Shown here: in pieces, positions 8,254-19,672 of the stretch
Layout: each line of letters begins with the position of its first letter
How positions within the stretch are numbered: position 1 is the stretch's first letter
The notes under the pieces: model-generated
Database searches by the model: none
Told to the model about the DNA's origin: nothing
What the model saw: only the letters and a program-made list of their open reading frames with translations
Position numbers and translations under genes: made by a program
DNA from: a virus
Strand: one strand, 5' to 3'
DNA: 20,078 nt
Virus record (IMG/VR): IMGVR_UViG_3300044491_000761
Coordinates: 1-20,078 of that record

Positions 8254-8684
8254 TTGATCTTGATAAACTTCAAGAGATGTGGGAGAAAGATTCAAAAATT
8301 GATAGAGACAATCTACATGATGAATCACTGAGTATCCCCTCTCTACATGCAAAATACTTTGAACTTTATAATACACTTTTCCTTTTAAGAAAAAAAGCAG
8401 AGCAACAAAGAAAAAATATAAGACACGAAAGATATGAGTACTTCAGTGGTAAAGCAGATCCTGAAGTATATGTTGAAGCTCCGTTTCCCAAAAAAATCAG
8501 AGATAAAGATACTATGCAAAAATATCTTGATGCAGACGAAAAACTTTCTACAGTATGTTTAAAGATTGATTACTATGATACTATGCTTGTCTATATTGAG
8601 AGCATACTGAAGCAGATAACTAATAGAACCTATCAAATCAAAAATGCAATAGAATTCATGAGGTTTAATTCAGGACTAGGATAA
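8250..8684 (+). CDS. uvsY: Recombination mediator UvsY
   Basis: This 144-residue protein (T4: 137) is the mediator that loads UvsX recombinase onto ssDNA covered by gp32. It is predicted to be mostly helical. It aligns with T4 UvsY in its N-terminal LDKLQEMWEKDSKID, in the helix RKKAEQQRKNIRHERYEYFSGKADP around 45-69 (T4 has a similar basic helix then YYSGRGD), and in the final helix with NAIEFMRFNSG. The start overlaps the gp3-like stop and its stop overlaps the next start by one base, so translation is probably coupled along gp3-uvsY-8684 ORF. Confidence 0.92.
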   Translation: MIDLDKLQEMWEKDSKIDRDNLHDESLSIPSLHAKYFELYNTLFLLRKKAEQQRKNIRHERYEYFSGKADPEVYVEAPFPKKIRDKDTMQKYLDADEKLSTVCLKIDYYDTMLVYIESILKQITNRTYQIKNAIEFMRFNSGLG

Positions 8685-10873: not shown

Positions 10874-11413
10874 ATGATTCCACCAGCAACTATGGTAAAA
10901 AGAAAAAGATCTGAACATTATGTGAATAATAAAGAGTTTCTTGCTGCTCTGGTGAAATATCGTGAAGATGTGGAGATTGCTTTTATAAAGAAGAACGGTA
11001 GAGAGCCCACTAAGGCAGACAGAGCGACTAGGTGGGATACAAAACCTACTATCCCTCGTTATGTTGGGGAGTGTTTTCTAAAGATTGCTAATCATCTCTC
11101 ATTTAAACCCAACTTCGTTAACTATATGTTTAAGGAGGATATGATTTCTGACGGTATTGAAAATTGCGTTCAATATATTCACAATTTTAATCCTGAGAAG
11201 TCTCAGAATCCTTTTGCTTACTTTACTCAAATCATCCACTATGCTTTTCTTCGTCGTATTCAACGTGAGAAGCGTCAACTAGAAATTAAAAATAAGATTC
11301 TTGAGAAGTCTGGTTTTTCGGAAGTCTTTGATGATAGTAATACCCTTGACTCAAACAATTTTTCCGAATATAATAGCATTAAAGACGCAGTACATTCCAA
11401 GCTTCGTAACTAG
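10874..11413 (+). CDS. 55: Late sigma factor gp55
   Basis: This 179-residue protein (T4 gp55: 185) is a minimal sigma factor that directs host RNA polymerase to late NATAAATA promoters. It matches T4 gp55 at the N-terminus (HYVNNKEFLAALVKYR at 15-30) and in the sigma region-2-like core (MISDGIENCVQYIHNFNPEK, then NPFAYFTQIIHYAFLRRIQREKR, about 90-134). The start is uncertain. The listed ATG gives the odd opening MIPPATMVKRKR; an in-frame ATG at 10892 is possible. In the +2 frame an ATG at 10858/10861 gives MSKDYDSTSNYGKKKK, a more gp55-like opening that runs into a stop at 10912 and would join SEHYVNNKEF if one A were removed. The C-terminus lacks an evident SLDFL-like clamp-binding motif known in T4. 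Confidence 0.92.
   Translation: MIPPATMVKRKRSEHYVNNKEFLAALVKYREDVEIAFIKKNGREPTKADRATRWDTKPTIPRYVGECFLKIANHLSFKPNFVNYMFKEDMISDGIENCVQYIHNFNPEKSQNPFAYFTQIIHYAFLRRIQREKRQLEIKNKILEKSGFSEVFDDSNTLDSNNFSEYNSIKDAVHSKLRN
11346..11374 (+). promoter_or_regulatory. Host-type promoter inside the 3' end of gp55
   Basis: TTGACT (11346-11351), 17-base spacer, TATAAT (11369-11374): 5/6 and 6/6 matches. Predicted start near 11381 gives an RNA carrying the whole inverted repeat 11435-11500 in front of the HNH gene. Lies inside coding sequence, so chance cannot be excluded. Confidence 0.5.
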
Positions 11414-11448
11414 TAATTAAGCGGCAGCAATGGGGTCGGGGGATTTTA

Positions 11449-11477
11449 TTGCATAAGTCCGCATAATATGATATAAT
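11449..11477 (+). promoter_or_regulatory. Extended -10 promoter inside the HNH leader loop
   Basis: A perfect TATAAT (11472-11477) preceded by TGA (extended -10 element) sits 17 bases after a weak -35, TTGCAT (11449-11454, 3/6). Start near 11484 would give an RNA lacking the 5' arm of the inverted repeat. Confidence 0.5.
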
Positions 11478-11479
11478 AA

Positions 11480-11487
11480 TATAAATA
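11480..11487 (+). promoter_or_regulatory. Late-promoter box TATAAATA before the HNH endonuclease
   Basis: An exact TATAAATA ends 23 bases before the HNH ATG and lies inside the loop of the inverted repeat. By T4 geometry transcription would start at about 11492-11494, within the C-run of the 3' arm, leaving a short unstructured leader. A start in C is less favourable than the usual purine. Confidence 0.65.
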
Positions 11488-11510
11488 GTTTTCCCCCGAC
11501 TATAAGAATA

Positions 11511-12026
11511 ATGACTCGCTGTAACCAGAATAGATTACAAGCCATAGAAGAAGGTAAGAAAACTTACACTAGTCCTACGCCGTGTAAGCACTGTGGAAGC
11601 TGCGAGAAATATGTTAGTAGTTATGGGTGTTATCCGTGTAATTATAAAAGAGGAGTTAAACGACTTCTTGAGGGTTGTTGTGATGGGTATATGACTAAGG
11701 AGAAGTGGGATGCTAATAGAGAAAGAAGACGAGAGGACCTTAGAGAAATTAATAAAAGGTATAGTCAAACAGAAGGTGGTAAATTAAGGAATAATGTAAG
11801 AGCCGCAAAGAGAAGAGCAGCAAAGAGATTCCAGACTCCAACTCTTACACCGGACGAAAAGGAGGCAATCTTGACTATTTACGAAAAGTGTGCTATAATG
11901 ACTTCTACAACTGGGGTGCTCTATGAGGTCGATCACATTACTCCCATATGTAAAGGAGGACTCCATCATCCAGACAATTTACAGATTTTAACTATGAAAG
12001 AAAATAGACGGAAGGGTGGTAAATGA
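11511..12026 (+). CDS. Free-standing HNH homing endonuclease
   Basis: This 171-residue protein has a C-terminal HNH nuclease motif: YEVDHITPICKGG (catalytic His in VDHI at about 140), then HHPDNLQILTMKENRRKGG (Asn of the NLQ segment and the final N-R-R-K-G helix). Upstream are a Cys-rich probable zinc element (CKHCGSC at about 25-31, then CYPCNY and CC) and a long basic helical region with many Arg and Lys (RRAAKRF). Such proteins nick or cut DNA at sites absent from element-bearing genomes and spread by gene conversion. It separates gp55 from gp47, neighbours in T4's transcription order, and ends with an ATGA overlap on gp47, whose ribosome site (GGGTGG region) it supplies. Weak TAAGAA is the only candidate ribosome site. 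Codon use is rich in AGA and AGG, unlike the capsid genes. Confidence 0.88.
   Translation: MTRCNQNRLQAIEEGKKTYTSPTPCKHCGSCEKYVSSYGCYPCNYKRGVKRLLEGCCDGYMTKEKWDANRERRREDLREINKRYSQTEGGKLRNNVRAAKRRAAKRFQTPTLTPDEKEAILTIYEKCAIMTSTTGVLYEVDHITPICKGGLHHPDNLQILTMKENRRKGGK
11871..11899 (+). promoter_or_regulatory. Host-type promoter inside the HNH gene, facing gp47
   Basis: TTGACT (11871-11876, 5/6), 17-base spacer, TATAAT (11894-11899, 6/6), with TGC just before the -10 (extended -10). Predicted start near 11906, about 117 bases before the gp47 ATG. It could supply gp47-DUF3110-gp46 transcription independently of the HNH leader. Confidence 0.55.
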
Positions 12027-18040: not shown

Positions 18041-19129
18041 ATGGCGCTCTCATCCGACTTTATCATCACAGCACTCCAGAACTCCTTCGGTTCCGAAGTT
18101 ACTTCTGGTGACATCCGTGGGTGGTGTGCAATGAATGGTTTTAATTACCAAACAGTTACTAATAAACTGTCTGACTATAAAGTTGGACGTGGTAAGTGGA
18201 ACATGGAAGTAACAAAGGGAGCAGTAAAAGAGTTGGAAACATCTTACAATTCTCCGGCAGCGATTCCTGCAATTAAACAAAACCTTATTCCTCATAAAGA
18301 TGATACCTTCGTCAAGTTTGGTAACTTCGGTGATATTAAAAAAATTATTAAGTCCTGCTTATTCTATCCTACATTTATTACGGGATTGTCTGGTAATGGT
18401 AAGACGTTTAGTGTTGAACAAGCGTGTGCCCAACTCGATAGAGAACTGATTCGTGTTAATATCACAATTGAGACTGATGAAGATGATCTCATTGGCGGAT
18501 TTCGTCTGGTGGGAGGTGAGACTGTTTGGCATAATGGCCCAGTCATCGAAGCCTTGGAGCGCGGTGCGATTCTACTACTTGACGAGGTTGACTTGGCTTC
18601 CAACAAAATTCTTTGCCTTCAATCAATCTTGGAAGGTAAAGGAGTTTTCTTGAAAAAGATTGGTAAGTTTGTCAAACCTGCTGCTGGTTTCAATGTTATT
18701 GCTACTGCTAATACCAAGGGTAAAGGTTCTGATGATGGACGCTTTATCGGAACTAACGTCCTGAATGAAGCGTTTCTGGAGCGTTTTCCTGTGACTCTAG
18801 AGCAAGAATATCCCACCCCTTCTGTTGAGCAGAACATTCTATCCAAACTCTGCAGCGATACCGACTTCTGTAAGCGTCTCTGTGACTGGGCAGACATCAT
18901 TCGTAAGACATTCTATGATGGTGGTATTGAAGAAATCATCAGCACCCGCCGTCTGGTTCATATTGTGAAGGCATATAGTATCTTCAATGACAAGGCAAAA
19001 GCAATTCAGGTTTGTGTCAATCGTTTTGATGATGAAACAAAGCAAGCATTTCTGGAACTGTACGACAAGGTTGATGCTGACTTTGTTCTGCCCTCCGAGG
19101 GTGGTATTGACACATCAGTTGTGTATTGA
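18041..19129 (+). CDS. cobS: CobS/MoxR-type AAA+ ATPase
   Basis: This 362-residue protein has a short N-terminal helical domain (~1-90, with a GWCAMNGFNYQTV segment) and an AAA+ core: Walker A GLSGNGKT at 115-122, Walker B LLLDEVD with Asp181-Glu182, sensor-1 IATANT near 225, and an arginine-finger region LNEAFLERF near 243-251. The family includes cobaltochelatase subunit CobS, and cyanophage copies are commonly named cobS; more cautiously it is a MoxR-like remodelling ATPase acting on a VWA partner, here probably the CobT-like protein upstream. AAAGGA directly before the ATG is a strong, closely spaced ribosome site. A TATAAT-like stretch at 18012-18017 lacks a -35. A perfect host promoter lies in its last codons. 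Confidence 0.88.
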   Translation: MALSSDFIITALQNSFGSEVTSGDIRGWCAMNGFNYQTVTNKLSDYKVGRGKWNMEVTKGAVKELETSYNSPAAIPAIKQNLIPHKDDTFVKFGNFGDIKKIIKSCLFYPTFITGLSGNGKTFSVEQACAQLDRELIRVNITIETDEDDLIGGFRLVGGETVWHNGPVIEALERGAILLLDEVDLASNKILCLQSILEGKGVFLKKIGKFVKPAAGFNVIATANTKGKGSDDGRFIGTNVLNEAFLERFPVTLEQEYPTPSVEQNILSKLCSDTDFCKRLCDWADIIRKTFYDGGIEEIISTRRLVHIVKAYSIFNDKAKAIQVCVNRFDDETKQAFLELYDKVDADFVLPSEGGIDTSVVY

Positions 19130-19135
19130 TATAAT
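19107..19135 (+). promoter_or_regulatory. Perfect sigma70 promoter at the end of cobS
   Basis: TTGACA (19107-19112), exactly 17 bases, TATAAT (19130-19135): 12 of 12 consensus bases, plus TGA before the -10 (extended -10). Predicted start near 19142, so it drives the DUF3310-like gene and gp45. The ATG at 19136 abuts the -10 and would be upstream of the RNA start. Confidence 0.8.
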
Positions 19136-19672
19136 ATGGTGAACGCTTGGAGTCTCTTATCCGACACTATGGATGAACTTAAAAATGATGTTGTCACTCT
19201 TGGTGGCACTACAGGTGAAACAACAAAAGAAGACTGGAATGATTTTTGGGAAGGAGATGGTATTAGCATGACAGGTAATCCTTACGGACGTTTCCCTGAT
19301 ATTATTGATTTCTCATCTTCAGTCACTGGTTCAAGAATTGTTGGTGGTGACTATACTTATTCAAATAATACCTTGGAATTCTCTAAAAGATACAAGTACA
19401 ATGAGGATGCCATCCTCAAAGAACTGAAAGATTATATTACTGGAACATATAATCAGCACTACTCTGCTGGTTCCGATAAAATTCAAACACTTGATTTGAT
19501 TGAAGCATGTGGTGATGGTGAATCCTTCTGCCGCAGCAATATCCTCAAGTATGCTTCTCGTTATGACAAGAAAGGCACTGCACGACGTGACATTACAAAA
19601 ATTTTGCACTATGCTGTGCTTCTGATGCATTTCAACGACAAAAATGCTCAACGTGAAACCTATCCACAATGA
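19136..19672 (+). CDS. DUF3310-like protein upstream of gp45
   Basis: The listed frame gives 178 residues. The C-terminal ~70 match the DUF3310 pattern seen in many phages: QHYSAGSDKIQTLDLIEACG (HY, then a helix with a Leu/Ile-Glu-A core), FCRSNILKYASRYDKKG (the N-x-x-K-Y-x-x-R helix) and a final helix DITKILHYAVLLMHF. In typical members this reads HY...E.IEA...F..GNAIKYI.RAG.K...ED..KA..YL. The function is unknown. Residues 1-100 are polar and Gly/Thr-rich. The ATG at 19136 lies directly against a perfect -10 box, so RNA from that promoter would start after it; translation from the ATG at 19169 (MDELKNDVV) is then likely, giving 167 residues. No clear ribosome site is seen for either. Confidence 0.75.
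   Translation: MVNAWSLLSDTMDELKNDVVTLGGTTGETTKEDWNDFWEGDGISMTGNPYGRFPDIIDFSSSVTGSRIVGGDYTYSNNTLEFSKRYKYNEDAILKELKDYITGTYNQHYSAGSDKIQTLDLIEACGDGESFCRSNILKYASRYDKKGTARRDITKILHYAVLLMHFNDKNAQRETYPQ

Follow-up and report, generated by a model that had tools for sequence, protein, structure and literature searches.

A probable self-locking leader with promoters between its arms upstream of an HNH endonuclease-like gene in a T4-like cyanophage fragment

How is an endonuclease gene expressed once it has been inserted between genes that are read from upstream? This question is raised by a 20-kb fragment of a T4-like cyanophage (20,078 nucleotides, hereafter the window), whose closest isolates are Bellamy and S-SM2 with 75-79% identity. 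In the window an HNH endonuclease-like ORF occupies the slot between gp55 and gp47 (Table 1). In Bellamy this slot is empty, and the gp55 stop and the gp47 start overlap as TGATG. In S-SM2 it is occupied by an oxygenase gene. The slot is occupied in some genomes and empty in others, and homing by the encoded protein is putative. The best PHROG match of the ORF is PHROG 1035 ‘endonuclease VII’ (8e-22), and HNH PHROGs also match. The match to Pfam HNH is weak (0.007, below the Pfam curated cut-off), and the DH...GG...N motif of an HNH/His-Me finger domain is visible in the alignment. Judging from the order gp55-HNH-gp47-gp46, the gene would lie on a transcript read from early/middle promoters upstream. 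The gp55 product should read the TATAAATA box that is located downstream of gp55, and the late sigma factor gene and the nuclease gene inserted next to it may share regulation. An earlier note on this DNA had proposed an early/late translation switch as in T4 I-TevI, in which RNA from upstream forms the stem and blocks the ribosome and RNA begun in the loop is translated.

The overlap of the HNH stop with the gp47 start is also found in relatives, where the ribosome site often reads AGGAGG. In the window, GGAAGGGTGG at the end of the HNH gene can serve as the ribosome site of gp47. The last codons of the endonuclease supply this site in place of the gp55-gp47 overlap of empty genomes, and silencing of the endonuclease may uncouple gp47. 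A second sigma70-like match (11/12, TTGACT-17-TATAAT with TG) inside the HNH gene at 11871-11899 could serve gp47. At 19107-19135, directly 5′ of an ORF at 19136, the sigma70 consensus is matched at all 12/12 positions and the -10 element is extended. The gp55-gp47 slot also carries endonuclease VII-like ORFs in two distant T4-like phages, Rhizobium phage RHph_I1_18 (L207, 2016-2558) and RB11-B (L206, 1989-2369), both without the class I-type hairpin of the HNH relatives described below.

Table 1. Features of the gp55-gp47 locus and of the leader, in positions of the window
Feature	Position	Strand	Basis
gp55, late sigma factor gene	10874..11413	+	BLAST to annotated gp55 of Bellamy/S-SM2
Conserved 5′ hairpin	11421..11462	+	R2 covariance model; P1 and P2 covary in relatives
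P1 of the 5′ hairpin, GCGG / CCGC	11421-11424 / 11459-11462	+	
Internal loop between P1 and P2, CA / AUAAGU		+	
P2 of the 5′ hairpin, GCAAU / AUUGC	11427-11431 / 11448-11452	+	
5′ arm GGTCGGGGGA, in apical loop of the 5′ hairpin	11434..11443	+	Complementary to 11492-11501
Sigma70-type promoter in the loop, TTGCAT, 17 nt, (TGA)TATAAT	11449..11477	+	Same spacing in relatives
Late promoter box TATAAATA, gp55-type	11480..11487	+	Exact match; late-type box in relatives too
3′ arm TCCCCCGACT, 9 nt before ATG	11492..11501	+	Pairs with 11434-11443
Free-standing HNH endonuclease-like ORF of 171 aa in the gp55-gp47 slot	11511..12026	+	PHROG, motif
gp47 start ATG overlapping the HNH stop	12010..12025	+	Sequence; gp47 at 12023

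The GC-rich inverted repeat of 9 bp described in the earlier note was recovered at the same coordinates (GTCGGGGGA at 11435-11443 with TCCCCCGAC at 11492-11500), and the G-U pair G11434-U11501 extends it to 10 pairs. The late box, the TATAAT at 11472-11477 preceded by TG and the ATG at 11511 were likewise found where they had been placed, and the late box stands between the two arms as in the I-TevI layout. This repeat is the only perfect one in the window with at least 9 bp, at least 7 GC and a loop of at most 60. A mean of 0.017 repeats of this strength is expected per 20 kb (60 dinucleotide shuffles of the whole window). When the late box was fixed and its flanks were shuffled locally, at least 9 bp was reached in about 1.3% (40/3000). 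Among nine late-type boxes in the window, the 11480 box alone is enclosed by a strong helix; boxes were ranked by a contiguous-helix score, since duplex energies taken over a wide upstream region gave a noisy ranking. The fold of the 137-nt leader as a whole is unexceptional (z = -0.8); the significance of the repeat comes from its position and from comparison with relatives.

In upstream-initiated RNA the stem is predicted to form (P > 0.98), in agreement with the earlier claim, and RNA begun in the loop would lack the 5′ arm since the promoters stand between the arms. Folding of both RNA classes gave the expected difference: opening the start region (-15..+5) is predicted to cost 7.0 kcal/mol in read-through RNA and 0.9 kcal/mol in loop-started RNA. 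However, the read-through cost (7.0; about 5-9 kcal/mol) is within the range of ordinary genes in the phage. The C-rich 3′ arm ends 9-10 nt short of the ATG and leaves the Shine-Dalgarno region outside the stem, from which a partial, weaker block is predicted for the window. The proposed identity with I-TevI applies to the late box between the arms, but not to the position of the stem. In an alternative fold the 5′ arm is paired locally, within the P2 hairpin (-18.1 kcal/mol, 5′ part of the leader), and an incomplete or bistable lock is therefore possible.

Relatives of the leader were reached through the HNH protein and then through sequence patterns; blastn of the whole leader DNA against phage records gave only chance AT matches. 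A pattern of the shared part was found in 29, then 90 IMG/VR stretches, giving 48 distinct leaders, and in the cultured Synechococcus phages S-SRM01, S-B05 and RB11-B. The 5′ part consists of P1 (GUGGG/CCCAC and variants), an internal loop CA / GUAAGU and P2 (GCAAC/GUUGC; GUCA/UGAC in S-B05). It is followed by an apical loop with a hypervariable arm, the promoters, a complementary second arm and the start codon, which in most leaders is within -1 to 9 nt of the second arm. The window shows P1, the CA/RUAAGU internal loop and P2 (GCAAY/RUUGC) of this GCAGCAA/RTAAGT leader family, together with an apical-loop arm that pairs over 10 bp with the arm before the ORF start. The covariance model of P1/P2, which was built without the window (R2), gave one match in it, at 11417-11466 (37.5 bits, E 4e-10).

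P1 and P2 covary across the family: 90.9% of cells are paired and 6/11 pairs show double changes (reached in 0/500 shuffles). The conservation of GGGCAGCAA and GCGTAAGTCCC (part of P1/P2) is by construction because the pattern fixed these bases. A complementary arm pair of 9-16 bp with the second arm before the start codon is present in 47/48 distinct leaders. Leaders share descent, and the counts given here therefore do not represent independent events, a limit that the swapped-arm and slide controls address in part. There are 22 different arm pairs, and the two arms of one leader score 18.3 together, compared to 9.1 for arms exchanged among leaders and 6.7 for shuffled arms. The single exception, L276, lacks the 3′ arm and is not followed by an endonuclease ORF; next to it is the gene that, in a related contig of 211 kb (G002), stands behind the leader and a 101-aa ORF. 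A clear Shine-Dalgarno sequence was seen in 7/48 leaders. The median opening cost in the family is 11.2 kcal/mol for read-through RNA, compared to 2.2 and 2.6 kcal/mol for RNA begun at the late and the sigma70-type start, respectively.

Most ORFs behind the family leaders are of the GIY-YIG type, several HNH families are represented and some are short ORFs without a match. The phrog_5018 ORFs we read as PD-(D/E)XK-like from their motif. For some ORFs, e.g. the 101-aa MLNVSGIN type, no nuclease family was matched. In S-SRM01 the leader extends from 77571 to the ATG at 77663 of a GIY-YIG gene (QPX48117.1). S-B05 carries two family leaders (L344/L348), one of them before an annotated homing endonuclease and the other (155474) before an uncharacterised ORF. 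Some candidates were set aside. An R2 match in Bellamy (22 bits) has neither a late box nor a matching arm before an ORF, 3/10 TTGCAT-pattern matches (L336, L337, L341) were taken as chance because they lack a late box, and five scattered matches in a pattern scan of bacterial genomes are probably chance.

The relatives of the HNH gene itself carry a different hairpin, which we call class I and which is unrelated to the fold of the window leader. Relatives of the protein are encoded at 47 IMG/VR loci, and among 64 distinct gene copies gp55 is the preceding gene in 60 and gp47 the next gene in 62. Nearly all have an upstream inverted repeat such as GCTCCGTAATGT..TATAAATA..ACATTACGGAGCattATG. 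Its loop contains the late box, and its 3′ arm includes a Shine-Dalgarno motif (GGAG) at 2-4 nt from the ATG. In contrast to the window, the class I stem contains GGAGC and thus sequesters the Shine-Dalgarno sequence. Among 45 distinct class I leaders 92.8% of cells are paired, and 6/12 pairs changed on both sides, including an exchange within the Shine-Dalgarno pair (GCTCC/GGAGC to GCACC/GGTGC). Double-change cells number 38 compared to 12.4 in shuffles, with 0/500 shuffles reaching the observed value, and the signal is lost when the partner is slid. The median opening cost (-15..+5) is 16.8 kcal/mol for read-through RNA and 4.6 kcal/mol for RNA begun after the late box. Exact-pattern scans for late box and 3′ arm gave 43 matches, 42 of them directly 5′ of this endonuclease family. 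For this gene family, evolutionary comparison thus supports an I-TevI-type layout well. The hairpin is not found throughout, since the ACG-2014f copies of the gene (50% identity) have a small upstream ORF and no hairpin. The covariance model of the class I hairpin (R1) gave no match in the window, and the idea that its leader is a diverged class I leader was rejected.

Two further observations concern individual leaders. L028 and L046-L048 share an identical 56-nt leader and a near-identical N-terminal zinc-ribbon domain, the only shared part of the proteins, and differ in their nuclease domains (HNH in L028, an endonuclease VII catalytic domain in L046-L048). This amounts to a naturally occurring exchange of domains near residue 72. 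In L045 and L174-L176 the hairpin arms are retained and the loop with the late box is absent. The loop is still present in L069, on another contig from the sample set of L045, and its loss reflects either genuine deletion or a collapse of the assembly at the hairpin.

In a scan of G002, GIY-YIG and HNH ORFs were seen to be preceded by late boxes enclosed in strong repeats, with a stem sequence of its own in each leader. All 10 endonuclease-like ORFs found there by homology have an enclosing repeat and, at a distance of 21-28 nt from the ATG, an upstream late-type box, in a set that is biased because most queries were chosen by the same leader scan. In a less biased count of 43 late-box ORFs, a strong enclosing helix was found for 7/14 endonuclease-like ORFs, as classed by PHROGs and motifs, compared to 2/29 others (p = 0.003). 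The window leader has a homologue in G002, located 5′ of the 101-aa ORF (nhmmer 2e-4), and two compensatory substitutions preserve all 10 pairs between them (GGTCGGGGGA/TCCCCCGACT compared to GGTAGGGGTA/TACCCCTACT). GIY-YIG leaders of another type are located at 8679, 35515, 142711 and 164959 (- strand) of G002, in the order small stem-loop holding the 5′ arm, terminator-like hairpin, late box and 3′ arm. The layout that the earlier note had suggested looking for before HNH genes of other cyanophages recurs before endonuclease genes, with strong covariation.

The loop of the window leader carries more than a late box. A TATAAT-like hexamer (at least 5/6) is located exactly 17 nt after TTGCGT in 41/48 family leaders, compared to at most 14 for any other spacing. 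In 19 of the 41 this hexamer is the late box or its first six bases, and in 22 it is a separate TATAAT/TATTAT-like element. In S-B05, where P2 is altered, the TTGCGT position reads TTGACG. The window has the same arrangement, from TTGCAT at 11449 to TATAAT at 11472, with the late box behind it. In cyanophages, late promoters read NATAAATA, and a sigma70-like form has been described for the early ones (PMC2984593). Two promoters, one sigma70-type and one late, appear to stand in tandem between the arms, and early expression of the gene from a promoter of its own is possible as well. The host-type promoter that the earlier note had placed upstream of the repeat (TTGACT-17-TATAAT, 11346-11374) is present as a sequence, but lies within the gp55 codons for (V/I)D...YN, and a match of at least 11/12 occurs in only 13% of relatives. 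It was rejected as a conserved element.

These findings bear on a strict early/late timer as in I-TevI, in which the late promoter alone matters, early read-through RNA is silent and the enzyme is made late only. An exact late box between the arms, gp55 as the gene just upstream, class I relatives whose short loops have space for a late box only, and the precedents of I-TevI, segB and mobE (PMC2988022) all fit such a timer. The hexamer at 17 nt, which in 22 leaders is separate from the late box, implies a host-type promoter in addition and makes a strict timer rather unlikely for this leader. As the loop also holds a sigma70-type promoter, ‘read-through lock’ fits better than ‘early/late switch’.

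We consider a self-locking leader with its own promoters between the arms the best explanation overall, and a probable one. In read-through RNA from gp55 and beyond, the arm GGTCGGGGGA in the loop of the 5′ hairpin would pair with the arm near the start codon and hinder the ribosome. RNA begun at either loop promoter, sigma70-type or gp55-type late, would lack the first arm and be translated. The endonuclease gene would thus be read only from its own promoters and remain silent in messages from upstream, so that a compact mobile leader makes an inserted gene independent of neighbouring transcription. The elements, the pairing with its covariation in the family, the promoter spacing, the family membership and the association with several endonuclease families are computed directly. 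Firing of the promoters, the translation block by pairing and the timing in infection are what these features suggest. The arm pairs in 47/48 leaders, the preference for own over swapped arms, the 22 different pairs and the covarying P1/P2 strongly support, by comparison, the core logic of locked read-through RNA and free loop-started RNA. From the earlier interpretation, stem formation, free loop-started RNA and the recurring layout are retained; the upstream promoter, the timing and the details of the I-TevI match are not.

Alternatively, the leader might contain a DNA operator, with the dyad GGGCAGCAAC..GTTGCGTAAGTCCC, the arm repeat or both serving as a protein site that controls the embedded promoter, e.g. 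for autorepression by the endonuclease. The dyad overlaps the -35 element, and I-TevI represses its own late promoter (PMC2988022). We regard this as improbable, since the arms are hypervariable yet complementary across unrelated nucleases, contain G-U pairs and vary in length, as does the loop. The half sites are moreover asymmetric (2 vs 6 nt) and the 3′ arm adjoins the ATG. Slightly less probable still is a transcription terminator or mRNA stabiliser formed by the repeat or the P1/P2 hairpin, which would act without translational control. P1 is often followed by a U-rich stretch in relatives (CCCACTTTTAT), and the GIY-YIG leaders of G002 hold a separate terminator-like hairpin. The window repeat, however, was not called as an intrinsic terminator and lacks U's after it, the 3′ arm being followed by ATAAGAAT, and a terminator needs no second complementary arm beside the ATG. 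A chance repeat without function in this genome, compatible with the local shuffles and the ordinary whole-leader fold, is very improbable in view of the family membership, the compensatory changes relative to the G002 homologue and the 22 arm pairs.

A wider version of the self-locking leader is more tentative, and we give it somewhat less than an even chance: an undescribed mobile dual-promoter RNA lock, used by endonucleases of several superfamilies in T4-like aquatic phages, that may be bistable and swapped as a cassette. Identical bases of the variable arm are used in each of two mutually exclusive folds, the local P2-side hairpin and the long-range start-site stem. Compared to the common form, the window has four coordinated substitutions with both folds kept, so that a two-state leader is possible. 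Switching would then possibly be co-transcriptional or depend on a ligand or protein.

If these readings hold, a few T4 case studies extend to a general rule with natural covariation as evidence. Unrelated phage endonuclease families would carry private locks against read-through translation, built in at least three ways and once as a portable leader. The convergence proposed earlier is seen in that several unrelated leader types share the same logic, but the window leader is itself shared and mobile and no independent invention. No Rfam family exceeded the gathering cut-off for the window leader or the other leader families searched, which marks a new RNA element for which the cultured cyanophages S-SRM01 and S-B05 offer test cases. 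Such leaders are also a means of finding hidden mobile endonuclease genes.

SAM-II-like riboswitches, which form H-type pseudoknots, resemble the present leader in the pairing of a 5′ hairpin loop with the start region. The leader has no Rfam match, and a ligand for it would be hypothetical. In T4, late promoters with hairpins that sequester the ribosome-binding site control I-TevI, I-TevII and I-TevIII, segB, e and soc, and the same is found for mobE of Aeh1 (PMC2988022, PMC3014915). As in I-TevI, the late box stands between the arms, read-through RNA is predicted to fold over the start region and late RNA would lack the 5′ arm (PMC2988022, PMC3014915). Unlike I-TevI, the present leaders have a constant hairpin framework with a variable arm and an embedded sigma70-type promoter, are common to several endonuclease families and, in the window, leave the Shine-Dalgarno sequence uncovered. 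According to PMC2988022, mobE of Aeromonas phage Aeh1 is also a free-standing HNH gene of a T4-like phage with a late promoter and a hairpin over the ribosome-binding site. It differs in its insertion site (nrdA) and its hairpin, with no shared framework family known. The seg43(25) gene of Aeromonas phage 25 has a stable hairpin just 5′ of an uncovered ribosome-binding site, as in the window, and partial repression is suspected there. The passages of PMC2988022 on this gene describe no promoter between the arms. In the open-access papers searched, no report of such leaders on cyanophage endonucleases was found. The principle is already known; what looks new is a mobile framework that combines variable arms with tandem promoters.
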